From positions 1-64,000 of the forward strand of contig CAMLMH010000010.1 of the NCBI GenBank assembly GCA_946481315.1: 64,000 nt of DNA, written 5' to 3'. The notes beneath the pieces were generated by a model. The model searched no databases. It saw nothing but the letters and a program-made list of their open reading frames with translations, and was not told where the DNA came from. This document shows positions 1,150-9,481 of this stretch, piece by piece. How positions within the stretch are numbered: the stretch's first letter is position 1; each line of letters opens with the position of its first letter. This DNA comes from an uncultured Bacteriovorax sp. (GTDB taxonomy: Bacteria > Bdellovibrionota > Bacteriovoracia > Bacteriovoracales > Bacteriovoracaceae). Position numbers and translations under genes: made by a program.

Positions 1150-2230
1150 ATGCTTAATCGTAATCTCATGCTCGAGAAGGGCTCGTGGCAATTAAATGTC
1201 ATGCTGGTCTTTCCTTTTTTTATGCTCGCCCTATGTGCAGTTGAATATTTTGTTTTCGGCAATCATGCATTTCTGGAGTATCAAAATATTATTCGCTTTG
1301 TGCAAATGAATGTTTTTCTGGACGGGGCACACGTCCTGTTTACCTTTGTCATGTTATGGGGAACAAAAGAAGGAAAAGAGACAGTTCGTTTTTTTTAGAG
1401 AAAGAGTTAATTACCATCTGGTAGTGCGCAGTTTGGTTATTTTCATCGCCTACTACACTCTGACCTATTTTTACTTTGCCCGTCTTTTTGATTTCAATCT
1501 GCTCTTGGGAATCAGTGTATTCATATTTTTAAAGGCCATGCCTATCTGGCATAGTCTCACGCAGGTCTTCGGCATTTCTTTGCATCTAGATCCAGAACTC
1601 ACAGGACAGGAAAGAAAAGTCCGTAAAAATGTCTTTGAAAGTTTCATCATCGCTGTGCTTTTTAATCTGGTTTGTCTGATCTTGTGGCATAGATCGAAAA
1701 AACTCTGGCCGGACTACGCTGATATTTTAACGTTTTTAAATTACGCCTCCCTCGCCTTAGTCATTTTTTCCTTATTTTATGTCTTTTATACCTTCGATGC
1801 CTTACCTGGAACAAAAAAATTTAAAAAATTGAATATGCTATTTTTGGTCCGGCTTATCTTTTATCCGCTGACCCCCTTTACCTCCCTGGTAGGATTCTCA
1901 GCAGCATCTGTTCATGGAATAGAATACGCCTGTATCACGTCTGCTATGCTGAAGAAGGAAAAGAAGAAGTGGATGTTATATGGTTATCTTGCACTGATAG
2001 TTTTAATTTTCCCGCTTTTTACATCTCCCAAGATTTTTTCTCAGTTTGTAGTCAAACTTCCCCGCGAGCTGAGCCTGCATTTACTCTCTTTTTCTTTTGC
2101 CATCACTTTTGTGCATTACAACCTGGACCATTTCGTTTTCAGCCGACGTTATTCGCCGGAAATAAATCCGGCGCCGGCTAAAGATAATGCATCAGCAGCA
2201 CCGGAAGAATCAGGACTCACCTATAATTAA
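1150..2230 (+). pseudogene. Frameshifted multi-pass membrane protein gene
   Basis: Two overlapping frames together make one protein of about 360 aa. The first (1150-1398) gives 82 residues with two hydrophobic segments and stops at TAG just after a run of eight T (1389-1396). The second frame continues from the same point (RERVNYHLVVRSLV...) to 2230 with several more hydrophobic segments and a charged, Ala/Pro-rich tail. Removing one T restores a single frame. I do not recognise the family. The gene could be dead, rescued by slippage on T8, or intact with a sequencing error. It starts just downstream of the IS right end, so its original promoter may have been displaced. It converges on the P450 gene with one base between stops. 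Confidence 0.65.
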
Positions 2231-2231
2231 A

Positions 2232-4442
2232 TCATTCGAGCAGATCACCATCGTCATGACTTTCTAAGGGTGACCACTCTTTTTTAAATAATATATGCTG
2301 ATAATATTTATCAGTCAGAGTATCGAGCTTGAGGGCAGGATTTTTCATACATTTGTTGTAAGCGACTTCATCCGGTTTGCGCAAAATCAAAGCATTTTTG
2401 CCAATACACCCGCGGAATCCCCATTCTAGTCGAGTGTAGAACAAGGCCTGCTCTGCACTCATCTCTTCAGTCACCGGAAAGGCAGTGGCCGACATCGGAT
2501 TTCTATGGGCCATGCGAAAGGTGGCCCGGTCGTAGAATTTCATGTCCTCTTCAAACTCAAAACCTGTATTGATCCCGGCCTTCTCCGGTTCTGGAACTTT
2601 ACTTAGATCCAGAGGCGTCCCAAAAATTTCAGTGTTAAAGAAAAAGTTTTCGTTGGGAGACAGGTGTGTTTTACAGTGCCGGTACTTATCCTGATATCCT
2701 TCGCTCTTTATCTCTTTGATACAATGATGAAAGGATTCAGGCAGACGACAGATAAAGAGGTCTTCAATTTCCCGGACGGTAAACTGCCCCTTGAGATTGG
2801 TGAGAACAGGACTGAAGACATTTTTAAATGTACTTAACGATTCAAAGTTGGAGAGACACTTGCGATAAAAAACCCGGTCGTAATCCATGAGATAATCTTC
2901 AAAAGCAAACCGCGGATCGGCGAGCGTTAATTTATTTTTTACCCGTGGCGAATTGAATTCAACCACAAAACTCTCCGGAAATGGTGAATCGGCCCAGTCG
3001 CGCTTTTCTTCCAGAGCAACGATGTTGTCATCGTAACTGATTCGTCCTATCTCTGCGTCAATCAACCGAATTTCCGGAAGCATGATTAAGGCCTTTAAAA
3101 TTTCCGGAACCATAACTTCGGCAATATGATCGCCCAGGCATTTGTGGTGACCGAATCCGAAATGCAAGTAAGGAGTCTCCGCAGACTGAATGGAAGGACG
3201 GTCGACACGGAAGTTGTTCGGCTTTAAAATTTTTCGTTCATCAAACATGGCAGAGATAACGGCTGCGACAACCATCTGACCTTTTTTTACTTTGTATTCC
3301 CGACTGGTGTCTTTTGCCAGGACATAATCACTTTCAGCATAACGAATAACAACCGTATTGACTGGTCTAAACCGTAAGGCCTCCCAGACAAAACGATCAA
3401 AAAGATCCTGATTTCCTGCCTTCAAGGCCTCTTGTGCTTTAGCGAGAATTTGAGGATGCTTAAGCATAAATTCCAGTGCCTGAACAATTGCGGCCTGAGT
3501 GGTTTCCACTCCGCCAACTAAAGTTCCGATCAGGTTGGTCCGCACCCGTCCGTCATAAAAATCGAGCATCTCACCTTCAGGAACATTTGTTTTTAATAAG
3601 CGGGCCAGTACAGTGTCTTCATTCAAATAGCTTTCATCAGCGCGCTTTTTAGTAATGAGTTTCTTTAGATGAGCATGCATTTCTTTGCCAACCTGCAGGC
3701 CTTTTTCTTCATAGTGCTTTTTGTTAACAACATTGTGAAAAAAACTATACTGAGAGTATTTAGACCAGCGGTACATGGTCCGCAAATCAGGTCCGGTCAG
3801 ACCAAAATACTGCTGAACAATTTCCAGCGGAACTTTACGTGCAATGGCATTGACCACTTCGATTCTTCCGTTGACATTACTCAGATCGATGGCCTTTTGC
3901 GTTTCTTCCCGGACCATCTTACGAATAAGCGGTAGGTCTTCGCGTTTAAGCATCGAGCGCATCCAGGATTTTTCTTTATTTACAGAATCATGATCGTGAG
4001 CAAGCATAAATTTTCCCACGCTCTCATCCATCTTTTTTCGGTAGAAGCGAGTTGAAAAAACTTTGGACTGAGACAAAACTTCCCTGACATCTTCATCCAG
4101 AGTGACGATCACTGTTTTTTGTCTGGGAAGACCATCGTCAATGAGCTTTTTAGAACCCATGATCTCATTAATCTCGTATATAGGTCTCTTTTCCCGCAGG
4201 CGTTCAAACAGCGGAATTGGATTCTGCAGCGACCATTTAAAAAAAGTGGCAACATCATGCTGACCAAATAGACTGGCCATGCTGATACCTTCGGCTTCTT
4301 TAAAAAAATCTTTTCCGACAAATTCTTCTGAAACCTCAGCATATTTACTGGCGACATCCCTCTTTACTACAGGCGAAGAACAGCCAAATACAGAGAGTAA
4401 GCACCCAGTTGAAATTAATTGATGTAAAAAATGTTTTTTCAT
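2232..4442 (-). CDS. Cytochrome P450 with lipoprotein signal and long C-terminal extension
   Basis: All P450 signatures are visible. The I-helix GGVETT is near residue 310, the ExxR motif EALR at 354-357, and the haem-thiolate loop FGFGHHKCLG has Cys435. The N-terminus (MKKHFLHQLISTGCLLSVFGC) reads as a lipoprotein signal, so the enzyme appears exported and membrane-anchored, which is very unusual for a bacterial P450. About 230 residues follow the normal P450 end; they contain several Cys and a GFRGCIG motif, and I do not recognise this domain. The start at 4442 is chosen for AGGA seven bases upstream and because it gives a proper signal; longer starts exist at 4448 and 4466. It lies directly downstream of the di-haem gene, probably in one transcript. 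Substrate unknown; a peroxide- or hydroperoxide-driven reaction is inferred from location and neighbour. Confidence 0.85.
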   Translation of the reverse strand: MKKHFLHQLISTGCLLSVFGCSSPVVKRDVASKYAEVSEEFVGKDFFKEAEGISMASLFGQHDVATFFKWSLQNPIPLFERLREKRPIYEINEIMGSKKLIDDGLPRQKTVIVTLDEDVREVLSQSKVFSTRFYRKKMDESVGKFMLAHDHDSVNKEKSWMRSMLKREDLPLIRKMVREETQKAIDLSNVNGRIEVVNAIARKVPLEIVQQYFGLTGPDLRTMYRWSKYSQYSFFHNVVNKKHYEEKGLQVGKEMHAHLKKLITKKRADESYLNEDTVLARLLKTNVPEGEMLDFYDGRVRTNLIGTLVGGVETTQAAIVQALEFMLKHPQILAKAQEALKAGNQDLFDRFVWEALRFRPVNTVVIRYAESDYVLAKDTSREYKVKKGQMVVAAVISAMFDERKILKPNNFRVDRPSIQSAETPYLHFGFGHHKCLGDHIAEVMVPEILKALIMLPEIRLIDAEIGRISYDDNIVALEEKRDWADSPFPESFVVEFNSPRVKNKLTLADPRFAFEDYLMDYDRVFYRKCLSNFESLSTFKNVFSPVLTNLKGQFTVREIEDLFICRLPESFHHCIKEIKSEGYQDKYRHCKTHLSPNENFFFNTEIFGTPLDLSKVPEPEKAGINTGFEFEEDMKFYDRATFRMAHRNPMSATAFPVTEEMSAEQALFYTRLEWGFRGCIGKNALILRKPDEVAYNKCMKNPALKLDTLTDKYYQHILFKKEWSPLESHDDGDLLE

Positions 4443-4450
4443 AATCATTC

Positions 4451-6553
4451 CTATCGCCCTACACACCGGTCATTTAGAATTTTATAAACCGGAACTGATG
4501 TCCATGATGTCTCCAGTTCCGGTGTGAGAACTTTTAAAAATTCGATTAAGGCCAGTTTATCCTGGTGTTTTAATTCTCCGCCGTACATTGCCGGTGAATG
4601 TCCGGCATTGCTGTTGCCGACAAGTGACGTATCAAAACAGAATGGATCGTCCTGGCTTTTGCAGTCGGCATCTTTTATGCGCGAATCAAATCCCAGATGA
4701 ACATGATCGTACTCCAGTCTTCCGACAATAAATTTAGATGAACGCAAACTCTCCGGAAGCAGCAATTCATACAGATTCAAAACGGAACCATTGTGCAGGT
4801 AAGGAGCGCTCGACCAGACCCCCGCCAGATGCCGGGCCACATAGGCTTTACCCGGTTTTACATTGGCATAAGCAAGTGCGCTGTCTTCGGCAAAACGCTT
4901 TTCTCCCAGAAAGGTGTCGCGGAAAATTTCCTTCCCCCGCACTTCCTCCTGAGCATAATCGGCCTGCGTTTTCTGATCCACACCGAACTCAGCATAAAAG
5001 CCGTCTTTAACTTTGTCTGTAAAACCAAAGATGGCATTTTTAAAATCCGCTCCCTCTGCACTCTTGCTGATATTTTTAATATACTGCCGGTCCGTCCCGA
5101 TTCGTTCCATATCAACGAGTTTATGATCAATAAGTATGCGCTTTGGACCGACCCGTTCAACGCCTGCTTCATGACACTGAATACATTTATTCAGATAAAT
5201 ATTGCAGCCCTTCACAACCTGATCAGTACTGATTTTTTTGTCCGGGAAAAATCGTTGGTATTCCGGAACGGGAACTTTGTGAATGAGCTTCTCCAGCTCA
5301 ATCAAATTAGGAATGTTCACAGTGGATTTCAGTTTATTTTTATCACCCTGAAAGTGCTCAGTTACAATGGCCCCTAAACCGAAGGCCTGACCGACGTTTC
5401 TTGAAACCAGGGAATTGGTGTTGGCATTATAATGGTAGAAGGCCTTGTACTTCATGGCGTACATCGGAGGAAGCGAAACGGGTGCCGTGAGATGGGTGTA
5501 GCTGCGTTTTCTGATCGTGGCATTGGAAATTCTGCCGAAAGCATCTGTGCGGCCATAACCTTCCGGAGTGGTAATGACATCCGGATTTGGTGCGCCGAAC
5601 CAGGTAAGATACTCCATCCTTTTTTGCATCAAAAGAGTCACTTCATCCAGCTCATAAGTTTCCTTGAGCATTCTCATCATGTATTTTGTGAGGATATCTT
5701 TTTTCTCATAAAGCAGTCTGCCTGCTTTAGTGGTGACTGATGCATTGATTTTTTTTCCGATGACTGGTGTTTTAATCAGAAGTTTTATGGCCTCTGTGAA
5801 AAGGGTATCTTCTACTTTAAGTTCTTTTTTCAAATCATGAACAAAATCGTGTGCACGGGCCTGTGCATTTTTAACACCCAGACGGTTATAAAATGCGGCC
5901 AGTTCCTTTTTATCAAACATGGTCTGATAGGTGGAACCGATGATATCGTAAAAAAATCCTTTCATTTCAATGGTCGCTGGTGCTCCATCGACAATTAAAA
6001 TTTTCTGCTGATCATTTTTAACTGAACCTGTGTGACAAAAAGCACAGTTAGCACCAGTCATTGCTATCGTTGGGTCACCTGATTTAAGTTTTTTTAACTT
6101 TGGCAGTGAAGTGAAATCCGTGTCACCATTTCGAAACAGATCCTGCTCCAGATGATCGTCACCGTCCCAAACGGCAGTCATCCCGACCCAGGCGTAAGGA
6201 CTCATTTCACTTTTAGCATATGGACTTCTGATGACTCCATATTTTGAATCGAGATTTTTAAAAAACAAACTTCCTTTTTCCCGGGAGAGAAAGGATTTCA
6301 GATTAAGCAGCCAAAGCGTGGGATAAATGTCTGATCCTTCCGACAGGTGCCACATAGCAAACTGTTCAGCATCCGTCACATTGGTTGGAAACTCCAGAAT
6401 GTGTCCCAGAGACTGCGCTTTGGCCATTAGTTCGGCCTGATACTCGCGCATGGTCTGATCAGCGGGAAGGCGTCCGGGATCTTTTGATTCTTTAAAACTG
6501 ACCTTCGTGCATCCGGAAGTCAGTATCAAGACACAGAAAAATAAGACTTTCAT
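4451..6553 (-). CDS. Di-haem cytochrome c peroxidase-like lipoprotein (RoxA/OdsA type)
   Basis: The signal peptide ends in LTSGC, so this is a lipoprotein of about 685 mature residues. It has two c-type haem sites, CAFCH (170-174) and CIQCH (457-461). It also has blocks typical of the long di-haem family that includes rubber oxygenase RoxA and the Pseudomonas fatty-acid dioxygenase/diol synthase pair PA2077/PA2078: GYGRTDAFGR near 333, and WSSAPYLHNGSVLNLYELLL near the C-terminus. Known members act outside the cytoplasm on isoprenoids or unsaturated fatty acids, forming oxygenated products. The downstream exported P450 starts nine bases after this stop. Likely role: extracytoplasmic lipid oxygenation; the substrate is inference. 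Confidence 0.85.
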   Translation of the reverse strand: MKVLFFCVLILTSGCTKVSFKESKDPGRLPADQTMREYQAELMAKAQSLGHILEFPTNVTDAEQFAMWHLSEGSDIYPTLWLLNLKSFLSREKGSLFFKNLDSKYGVIRSPYAKSEMSPYAWVGMTAVWDGDDHLEQDLFRNGDTDFTSLPKLKKLKSGDPTIAMTGANCAFCHTGSVKNDQQKILIVDGAPATIEMKGFFYDIIGSTYQTMFDKKELAAFYNRLGVKNAQARAHDFVHDLKKELKVEDTLFTEAIKLLIKTPVIGKKINASVTTKAGRLLYEKKDILTKYMMRMLKETYELDEVTLLMQKRMEYLTWFGAPNPDVITTPEGYGRTDAFGRISNATIRKRSYTHLTAPVSLPPMYAMKYKAFYHYNANTNSLVSRNVGQAFGLGAIVTEHFQGDKNKLKSTVNIPNLIELEKLIHKVPVPEYQRFFPDKKISTDQVVKGCNIYLNKCIQCHEAGVERVGPKRILIDHKLVDMERIGTDRQYIKNISKSAEGADFKNAIFGFTDKVKDGFYAEFGVDQKTQADYAQEEVRGKEIFRDTFLGEKRFAEDSALAYANVKPGKAYVARHLAGVWSSAPYLHNGSVLNLYELLLPESLRSSKFIVGRLEYDHVHLGFDSRIKDADCKSQDDPFCFDTSLVGNSNAGHSPAMYGGELKHQDKLALIEFLKVLTPELETSWTSVPVYKILNDRCVGR

Positions 6554-6703: not shown

Positions 6704-7432
6704 ATGATTTTTGGCCAAAGAACGTTTAAGACATTAAGAACCGGAGTGCTGATACTCACGACTGTGTTTTCTGCTCAGTTATTCGCTGAGAGTGGCGCGA
6801 TTATTCAGCACATGAAAGATGCCACCACCTTAAACCGCGAACGGGCCCCCCGGTACGCCGCTCTTTCTGAGGGGAAATCTTTGCCGCTTTCTTATGAACT
6901 TATTTTGATGGAAAACCTGGCCCAGCTCATTACCCAATCATTAGACGACAAGGCCCGCATTTATAATGCTGAAGGCATTGGTCTTTTTTTTGATGATCTG
7001 ATTGATATGCGTTTCACTCCTTTGTTTCAAAAAACTTTTGGACAAGAAGGGCCGCCAGTAACAAGAATTACGATCGACGTAAAATCTCTGCGTCGACGCT
7101 GGATAAAAATGCACAAGGAAAATAAGCAGACAAAAATTTATGAAGAAGCTCTAACACTTCTCGACGAAGGTGATTTACAGGCCACCAATCAAAACTGTCT
7201 GACCCGGCATTTTGTTGAATCAATCGCCAGATCTATCCTGAATAGAAAATGGCATCAGGACCGTGCGGCCACAGCAAAACTTTCTGATCCTGCTCCAATA
7301 TTGAATTCTTTTCTTTCAATACAGATTAATTCACTATCCTGGGCATATTCTCTTGATCGGCGTGCCTACTCTATCCAAAAAGAAAACATTCCGCTTTTTT
7401 GTCAGGACGTACCCGCCATTCCCTATAAATAA
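6704..7432 (+). CDS. Secreted protein of unknown function
   Basis: A 242-aa protein with an N-terminal signal (hydrophobic TGVLILTTVFSAQLFAES, cleavage after AFA/AES-like residues) and no further membrane segment, so probably periplasmic. The mature part is mostly helical and charged, with Cys near positions 166 and 233. I do not recognise a family. It is transcribed alone, divergent from the di-haem gene, and converges on the NadD-like gene with a single base between stops. Confidence 0.75.
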   Translation: MIFGQRTFKTLRTGVLILTTVFSAQLFAESGAIIQHMKDATTLNRERAPRYAALSEGKSLPLSYELILMENLAQLITQSLDDKARIYNAEGIGLFFDDLIDMRFTPLFQKTFGQEGPPVTRITIDVKSLRRRWIKMHKENKQTKIYEEALTLLDEGDLQATNQNCLTRHFVESIARSILNRKWHQDRAATAKLSDPAPILNSFLSIQINSLSWAYSLDRRAYSIQKENIPLFCQDVPAIPYK

Positions 7433-8212: not shown

Positions 8213-9481
8213 TTACTTCATTACCTGAGTACCATACGCGGATTTAATTTTCTCCATATAGGCCTTTTTCATATGGAATTCAAAATCTGCGTTACTTTCA
8301 TAGCGGTAACCCAGGACCTTATCCCACATTTCATAAGGCTCCATACACAAATAGAAAAAAACGTCAGCATGCCAGCCTGAAAAGGCATGATAAACCGTCC
8401 TGAAAATATCTTCTTTAATCTCATTGGGATAAGAAAACTTTCCGGCGACCTCTCTAAAGGGCATCTGTAAAATTTTGCTGGTTATTTGTTTGTTTCTGAT
8501 TTCGTTAATTGTTTTTTTATTAAAAGTTACAGTCCCCAGAGAAATCAAGGCACAATCTTTCGGGTGGAACGTCGTGGTGATCAAATTCACCACGTCAGTG
8601 TAATCCTGCCTGAACTCTTCATAAAAAATAATGGGGTGAAAATGAAATCCTACCAGATTGCCTTTTGCGACTATTTTCTCTGCGGCCTTTATCCGCTCAT
8701 GCAATGAGGCCGTGCGATGTTCTTCATTGTCGATGATGCGCTCGGGATTAAGACTCCAGGTCGTAATTACATTGCGGGGTAAATCGATGCCGGTTAAAAA
8801 ATCAACATTAGACGATTTGGTTTTTAGCTCCAGAATAAGACTAGGATGTTTGCGCGCAAACTCGATTAACTCTGCCAGATGTCCCTGTTTATTTCCCCAG
8901 AGAAGTGAATCAGACGACTGACCTGTACCAAAATGATAGAGGCGGTCAGGATCTATTACAGTGCTCATTAATTTATTTTTAAAATCAGCATCAATGATGA
9001 CTTCATTTTCATTAAAGTAAGATTGAATTGAACAATAACTGCAGCCATAGGAGCAGTTCCTGAAAGCATCGATCGTTTCCAGATTGCAGCAAAGAGTTTT
9101 TTCCGAGGCCACGGGACATCGTCCCATAATTTTTGCATCCGGATTTACTTCCTCCACAATGTGATAAGGAGATTTTAAAATATGATCCTTTCCAGAAAAA
9201 TGAGAATAAGATTTGCTGACTTTAAGTCCCTGATAGATGGCATCAACCGCTTTCAGGTAGTCCTGCTTATTTTCAATTATTTTTCCGACGAGATGATCCG
9301 GCAGACTCTCATTCCACTGAGCAAGATCCAGCAGCACTGTAGCGAGAGTATTAAATTCCTGAAACGTCAGGTGATATTGAAAACAAATCTTCTCCAGATA
9401 ATGTTTTTCATTATCCCGAAGAAGATTCATTTTTGTTTTATCGAATTTGGAAAACTTTGATCTGTAATCAAACCTTGTCAT
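8213..9481 (-). CDS. splB: Radical SAM protein, spore photoproduct lyase-like
   Basis: The radical SAM cluster motif is C143-x3-C147-x2-C150 (NCSYGCSYC). Flanking blocks match the spore photoproduct lyase family: ELKTKSSNV, NVITTWSLNPERII, EEHRTASLHERI and GFHFHPIIFYEE. The family uses SAM radical chemistry to reverse the thymine dimer (spore photoproduct) in DNA. At 422 aa it has about 80 extra N-terminal residues compared with Bacillus SPL. It sits 15 bp after the tryptophanase stop and 38 bp before the NadD-like gene, same strand. No sporulation genes are visible; a UV or desiccation repair role, perhaps in a resting stage, is inference. Confidence 0.8.
   Translation of the reverse strand: MTRFDYRSKFSKFDKTKMNLLRDNEKHYLEKICFQYHLTFQEFNTLATVLLDLAQWNESLPDHLVGKIIENKQDYLKAVDAIYQGLKVSKSYSHFSGKDHILKSPYHIVEEVNPDAKIMGRCPVASEKTLCCNLETIDAFRNCSYGCSYCSIQSYFNENEVIIDADFKNKLMSTVIDPDRLYHFGTGQSSDSLLWGNKQGHLAELIEFARKHPSLILELKTKSSNVDFLTGIDLPRNVITTWSLNPERIIDNEEHRTASLHERIKAAEKIVAKGNLVGFHFHPIIFYEEFRQDYTDVVNLITTTFHPKDCALISLGTVTFNKKTINEIRNKQITSKILQMPFREVAGKFSYPNEIKEDIFRTVYHAFSGWHADVFFYLCMEPYEMWDKVLGYRYESNADFEFHMKKAYMEKIKSAYGTQVMK

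Follow-up and report, generated by a model that had tools for sequence, protein, structure and literature searches.

Cytochromes P450 are generally regarded as cytosolic proteins or as membrane proteins that face a reductase, and a c-type di-haem protein must mature outside the cytoplasm. What, then, might an operon do in which a P450 and a di-haem protein both carry export signals? Such an operon lies in the 64,000-nt stretch of an uncultured Bacteriovorax sp. contig analysed here (CAMLMH010000010.1, hereafter the window), and we propose that it probably encodes a two-enzyme extracytoplasmic lipid-oxidation cascade.

The operon and the location of its products

Both open reading frames were confirmed on the minus strand, the di-haem gene preceding the P450 gene (Table 1). 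Only 8 bases separate the di-haem stop codon (4451-4453) from the P450 ATG at 4442, and because of this gap and the AGGA that overlaps the stop codon, co-translation is plausible. The ATG is the likely P450 start, the GTG at 4466 being the start of the mechanically called ORF; the lipoprotein signal is retained with either, and the cytosolic start raised in the initial annotation as a counter-case did not materialise. The flanking genes at 1310-2230 (+) and 6704-7432 (+) are oppositely oriented and have no family match over cut-off. Elsewhere in the window, an ORF at 135-1052 has helix-turn-helix and zinc-finger matches under their cut-offs and is transposase-like in look, and a spore photoproduct lyase-like protein (PF20903, 3.9e-15) is encoded at 8213-9481 in a lineage that is probably non-sporulating.

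Table 1. Positions of the features discussed, in the window unless a locus is named (A1, alignment of 42 long-form P450s; A2, di-haem alignment of 27 rows; both include the window row)
Feature	Position	Strand	Basis
RoxA-like di-haem cytochrome c lipoprotein, 700 aa	4451..6553	-	PF21419 2.7e-13; NF040606 1.6e-81
Di-haem signal peptide, lipobox Cys15	6509..6553	-	Cys in 24/27 A2 rows
First haem c site CAFCH (170-174)	6032..6046	-	Cys170, Cys173, His174 invariant in A2
Second haem c site CIQCH (457-461)	5171..5185	-	Cys457, Cys460, His461 invariant in A2
PYLHNGSV motif (584-591), MauG/RoxA group	4781..4804	-	LHNGS invariant in A2; aligned to RoxA PYFHNGSV
His652, likely distal haem ligand	4598..4600	-	Invariant in A2; aligned with RoxA GNDNGGH stretch
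AGGA, Shine-Dalgarno-like site of P450, overlapping di-haem stop	4449..4452	-	Read from sequence
Exported P450 lipoprotein with C-terminal domain, 736 aa	2232..4442	-	PF00067 1.5e-24
P450 lipoprotein signal, residues 1-21, lipobox Cys21 at 4380-4382	4380..4442	-	Cys in 42/42 A1 rows
P450 domain, residues about 63-497	2952..4256	-	Fold-comparison rows span 47-499; sole Cys (435) in 42/42 A1 rows
I-helix acid-alcohol pair E313-T314 (GGVETTQ)	3501..3506	-	Invariant in A1
ExxR motif E354-R357	3372..3383	-	Invariant in A1
Haem-thiolate ligand Cys435 (FGFGHHKCLG)	3138..3140	-	Invariant in A1
C-terminal domain, residues about 508-730, six Cys (529, 565, 574, 590, 679, 698)	2253..2921	-	Cys nearly or fully invariant in A1
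C-terminal domain, repeat 1, residues 508-622	2577..2921	-	hhalign vs repeat 2
C-terminal domain, repeat 2, residues 623-730	2253..2576	-	hhalign vs repeat 1
DUF1304 adjoining P450 or di-haem	L127:10118-10483, L131:10488-10859, L136:5339-5701, L145:10859-11227, L146:6786-7157		Pfam

Export of the window P450 is well supported. As the initial annotation had claimed, both proteins carry lipoprotein signals: each has a hydrophobic N-terminal segment ending in a lipobox Cys, as judged by the rule-based criterion for bacterial lipoproteins (signals were assigned by rule and by eye), and this Cys is found in all 42 P450 rows of A1 and in 24 of the 27 di-haem rows of A2, the window's own included. 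Cys counts give the best individual evidence of an oxidising compartment. The P450 domain has one Cys only, the haem ligand, in all A1 rows, and among the fetched loci the exported P450s averaged 1.4 Cys (n = 17) vs 3.3 for the cytosolic ones (n = 73; p = 3.5e-8); 14 of these 17 have a single Cys and the other three have 3, 3 and 4.

The window P450 has the haem-thiolate Cys loop, the ExxR motif and the fold of the cytochrome P450 superfamily, and all 50 rows shown in a fold comparison of the whole model were P450s. In a protein search it matched long-form P450s first, after which similarity dropped to stand-alone P450s of ∼420 aa. The di-haem protein has the features of the RoxA-like/FadCcp group (two CxxCH, PYxHNGSV and a distal His), and RoxA (4b2n) was the best PDB relative of profile A2 (5.4e-21), sharing the di-haem c layout, the C-terminal PYxHNGSV and the distal His region. 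The initial label 'RoxA/OdsA-like' fits PF21419 and the di-haem motifs, but not the curated models: RoxA, RoxB and RoxC gave 32.8, 35.2 and 42.3 bits against cut-offs of 1000, 900 and 900, and the central region could not be aligned with RoxA in sequence. It falls instead in NF040606, di-haem cytochrome c peroxidase (275.1 bits, curated cut-off 150), a family of which we know no member with tested activity. Its nearest named relative, from a Bdellovibrionales bacterium, is 64% identical.

Conservation of the pair and the C-terminal domain

The initial annotation had taken the two genes to be a pair that a survey of co-occurrence should find conserved, and the survey agrees. In 368 genomes from the phylum of L001, a Bdellovibrionaceae MAG, 15 had both genes, 1 the P450 only, 4 the di-haem gene only and 348 neither (Fisher p = 3.5e-22); absences are not certain, as the best 2 (P450) or 3 (di-haem) first-look candidates were scored per genome. 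The P450 profile was matched in 36 genomes, of which the 16 counted were hand-picked as long or lipoprotein form, and G309, with a partial P450 copy lacking the haem Cys, was left uncounted; NF040606 was over its cut-off in 19 of the 368. In 12 of the 16 P450 genomes the two genes are found a short distance apart on a single contig; G004, G197 and G368 have them on separate contigs, and G194 has a P450 contig of 6.1 kb and a partial di-haem match. Gene order varies: di-haem first, P450 first, divergent and convergent arrangements all occur, and G172 has P450, di-haem and P450. An indirect indication comes from protein lists of metagenomes: for 11 of the first 20 P450 entries, counting the window's own, the longest contig has exactly the length given for a di-haem entry. 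At L135:1764-8112, a P450, a di-haem gene and a second P450 stand in a row, the second P450 being without the haem Cys in the alignment.

DUF1304, a family of small proteins that appear to be membrane-bound, adjoins the P450 or the di-haem gene in 8 of the 16 genomes (L127, L129, L131, L136, L137, L138, L145 and L146) and probably in a ninth, G194, hinting at a role in lipid peroxide metabolism. It is present in 156 of the 368 genomes, mostly in single copy. DUF1304 as an essential part was ruled out for the window, in all 64 kb of which a six-frame profile search found none.

The C-terminal domain of ∼230 residues that had been noted on the P450 is confirmed at residues about 508-730 and has no convincing relative in Pfam or the PDB: the window row gave no Pfam match, and PDB sequence matches only at E 0.3 and 0.58. 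Its Cys number is 6 in 25, 7 in 15 and 4 in 2 of the A1 rows. The two repeats, whose boundaries were fixed by eye before they were compared, matched each other in hhalign with probability 98.9 and score 97, vs a peak of 18.4 in 100 column shuffles. In the full-length model the domain is helical, with block pLDDT of 70-95 except at about 531-560 and in the last 16 residues; modelling the isolated domain from 11 sequences gave a poor result (pLDDT 59.7). As modelled, the domain is a duplicated Cys-rich helical unit made of two units of ∼100 residues. When residues 500-736 were searched against a database, each of the 14 proteins retrieved carried PF00067, and the domain profile was matched in 13 of the 368 genomes, every one among the 16 with the P450; among the best 80 of 264 related loci (below) it was found only in L021. 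The domain may also exist as a stand-alone protein. A weakly related stretch lies within a separate 256-aa ORF behind a 619-aa P450 in G207 and G208; at L142:9371-12000 and L143:8444-11073 the weak relative likewise has an ORF to itself, which follows a shorter P450 and begins with a signal-like N-terminus.

Partners and location in related loci

A genome scan gave 264 P450 relatives, and the best 80, ranked on P450 similarity alone, were taken; removal of L001-L004, L012 and L021, which are of the long or Bdellovibrionota type, left 74 related loci. Within 3 kb of the P450, these 74 (from the best 80 of 264) had a di-haem partner, defined as a match to the A2 profile, in 55 cases, a COX-like partner in 10, a lipoxygenase in 1, both COX-like protein and lipoxygenase in 1, and none in 7. 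Three of the partnerless loci are at contig edges (L007, L016 and L071) and four are not (L013, L015, L067 and L074). As a control, none of 13 other P450s of the phylum had such a partner in flanks that were shorter, ∼1.5 kb beyond the matched stretch.

Pfam found PF03098 in L005, L006, L011 and L041, and PF00305 in L008 and L011; seven actinobacterial COX-like proteins (L027, L029, L042, L047, L066, L075 and L079) rest on a profile made from the former four. The COX-like protein of L006, the one compared with the PDB, is similar over its full length to prostaglandin G/H synthase 2 (residues 18-497, 1.9e-74), far above its matches to other peroxidases and to alpha-dioxygenase. In cyanobacterial L011 (9893-15881), a P450, DUF1304, a lipoxygenase and a COX-like protein are encoded in a row. 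The I-helix Glu-Thr pair is present in 67 of the 74 loci; the same seven actinobacterial P450s, all COX-paired, have Glu-Ser or Glu-Asn, that is, Ser or Asn at the distal Thr position. Over all di-haem frames, two CxxCH were found in 81/81, PYxHNGS in 78/81 and a hydrophobic N-terminus in 77/81, Bdellovibrionota included.

Of the 74 related loci, 73 were scored as having a cytosolic P450; the exception is Prosthecobacter L009, which has a lipobox. The hydrophobic-stretch rule missed L009 and flagged 7 of the 74 frames (L011, L016, L022, L041, L061, L071 and L077); these were counted as cytosolic because most of the stretches precede the conserved start or fall within the domain, with L041 and L061 not certain. 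Thus in the related loci the P450 and the di-haem protein appear to be in different compartments, and simple channelling does not explain their association.

In a careful tree, for which 52 of 96 rows were kept, the clade was separated from three outgroup P450s with 100/100 support, and the exported rows grouped with Prosthecobacter L009 at 85/94; a single export event is the simplest reading, although not firmly shown. This tree has 1 location change and at least 2 partner changes when two partner states are scored (di-haem vs COX/LOX), and a quick tree, in which L009 was labelled cytosolic and four partner states were scored, had 2 location and 5 partner changes. No P450 alignment included L140, which is split over three frames, or L139, which is partial; the trees and the Cys count also omit L012 and L021 (duplicates of L133 and L132) and the L135 second copy and L144 (both without haem Cys). 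A single clade of COX/LOX-paired P450s was rejected (p-AU 2.7e-32), the constraint group having been defined by partner after the quick tree was inspected. The weight of this test lies with rhizobial L041 (COX-like), which clusters at 100/100 support with three di-haem-paired P450s, those of Methylobacterium L020 and of Nitrobacter L070 and L077 (in L020 the di-haem gene is 1.8 kb away).

These data raise a wider proposition, for and against which we see about equal grounds: that an unnamed bacterial P450 clade in at least five phyla (Pseudomonadota, Cyanobacteriota, Actinomycetota, Verrucomicrobiota and Bdellovibrionota, as assigned from record titles) is a dioxygenase-P450 module whose dioxygenase is interchangeably COX-like, lipoxygenase or di-haem, and whose P450, in the single branch that holds Bdellovibrionota and Prosthecobacter, became an exported lipoprotein. 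The P450s of Nitrosomonas, Methylobacter, Nitrobacter, cyanobacteria, Nonomuraea and others belong to the same clade and have the same kind of partner, but unlike that of the window they are ∼420 aa long, lack the C-terminal domain and, except for Prosthecobacter L009, were judged to be without signal peptide.

Candidate chemistry of the pair and its known counterparts

In the cascade that we propose, the di-haem protein would oxygenate an unsaturated fatty-acyl substrate with O2, in the periplasm or at the outer membrane, to a hydroperoxide, and the P450 would use the O-O bond of this hydroperoxide directly, either by isomerisation (to a diol, epoxy alcohol or allene oxide) or by oxygen transfer, without NAD(P)H or a reductase. 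The C-terminal domain, probably a disulfide-stabilised helical duplication, may keep the P450 at, or present it to, the membrane, the partner protein or the substrate. We infer surface display of the pair, and likewise that its substrate and product are lipids. Two of the three partner families contain known fatty-acid dioxygenases, and so does the third when taken as the wider RoxA/PA2077 group. Coupling through a shared product would account for three unrelated families in the same place beside one P450 clade, and export would be permissible because a hydroperoxide-using P450 needs no reductase.

A conventional monooxygenase fed with electrons outside the cytoplasm, for example from quinol through the DUF1304 membrane protein and the di-haem protein to the P450, would be compatible with the Glu-Thr pair, which is kept in all 42 A1 rows as in O2-activating P450s and speaks against the cascade. 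The DUF1304 genes beside the pair in half of the P450 genomes and in the L011 cluster also fit such a chain. However, the di-haem protein is replaced in related loci by COX-like proteins and lipoxygenases, which are not known as electron donors, and DUF1304 is missing from the window and occurs in 156 of 368 genomes. Because unrelated hydroperoxide-forming partners interchange, we favour the hydroperoxide cascade and regard the electron chain as unlikely. Retention of T314 is also less contrary to the cascade, since the seven actinobacterial rows have Glu-Ser or Glu-Asn and since fungal 8R- and 9R-AOS, as described in PMC13049297, have Thr at the distal position too and are self-sufficient as far as known; T314 was matched to that position by eye from printed motifs. 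Against the cascade stand also the cytosolic P450s beside exported-looking di-haem proteins in 73 of the 74 related loci, the seven loci without partner and the shorter flanks of the control loci.

Less probable still is an H2O2-driven peroxygenase that acts on the same lipid independently of the partner's hydroperoxide. Such a shunt would suit both export away from reductases and an intact proton-relay pair, but it leaves the dioxygenase-type partner in 67 of the 74 related loci unexplained, and the window P450 scored 32.2 bits on the CypC model of the CYP152 peroxygenases against a cut-off of 600. That the di-haem protein cleaves isoprenoids as RoxA does, with the P450 oxidising its products, seems to us very improbable: PF21419 and the PDB ranking of RoxA point that way, but the RoxA/B/C scores are far too low (33-42 bits vs cut-offs of 900-1000), and the COX-like proteins and lipoxygenases that replace it in related loci speak for fatty acids.

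The initial annotation had proposed a hydroperoxide made by the partner as the P450 substrate. With the COX-like and lipoxygenase swap, this remains the likeliest chemistry; its comparison with plant CYP74 does not hold for the P450 itself. The two systems are alike in placing a (here proposed) hydroperoxide-using P450 behind a dioxygenase, and cyanobacterial L008 and L011 adjoin a lipoxygenase, but the I-helix motif FNxxGG that replaces the acid-alcohol pair in CYP74 (as given in PMC13049297) is absent from the window P450 (TNLIGTLVGGVETTQ), which keeps Glu-Thr. Closer in layout are the fungal DOX-CYP fusions (linoleate diol, epoxy alcohol and allene oxide synthases) and COX followed by PGIS or TXS, where, according to the same source, a P450 with no reductase consumes the peroxide formed by a COX-like haem dioxygenase. 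They resemble the neighbouring COX-like and P450 genes of the cyanobacterial, one rhizobial and the actinobacterial relatives; the window differs in its separate genes, its c-type di-haem dioxygenase candidate, its exported P450 and GGVETTQ in place of the SRS4 motif N/T/I-QxQ. The fungal LDS/EAS/AOS mark, this motif together with DOX fusion, was not found in the window P450, which is unfused and reads T314-T-Q-A with positions paired by eye; many relatives read T-T-S/A-Q, with Gln at +3 (matched by eye to fungal SRS4).

To our knowledge, none of the nearest known systems has an exported P450 or a di-haem/P450 pair. The open literature that we searched on exported P450s and bacterial dioxygenase-P450 pairs, a scope mostly outside subscription papers, gave no description of either, and two passages of the review PMC11719350 make no mention of a bacterial P450 of the exported, dioxygenase-paired kind. 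If the proposal is true, the operon provides a naturally occurring P450 that works outside the cytoplasm and needs no reductase, and the oxylipin cascades of fungi and animals have an analogue in bacteria that is possibly related to them. The partner data suggest a bacterial counterpart of the eukaryotic oxylipin and prostaglandin cascades; the swap would offer a bacterial setting for the dioxygenase-P450 cascades of fungi, plants and animals, with separate enzymes for mechanistic work, and would point to lipid signals made by bacteria, or to chemistry of their envelopes, among Bdellovibrio-type, nitrifying and photosynthetic groups. Moreover, P450s that are exported as lipoproteins and whose P450 domain has no Cys other than the haem ligand make reductase-free chemistry directly testable.

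A two-step exported pathway is described in PMC4496055 for the oleate-diol synthase of P. aeruginosa (PA2077, 10S-DOX; PA2078, 7,10-DS). It starts with a di-haem protein that has two CxxCH and the sequence PYFHNGSVP. The second enzyme there is also di-haem, whereas here it is a P450; PA2077 was compared by this description only. Tandem di-haem genes upstream of the nitrifier P450 in L014, L019, L028, L035 and L063 recall PA2077/PA2078.
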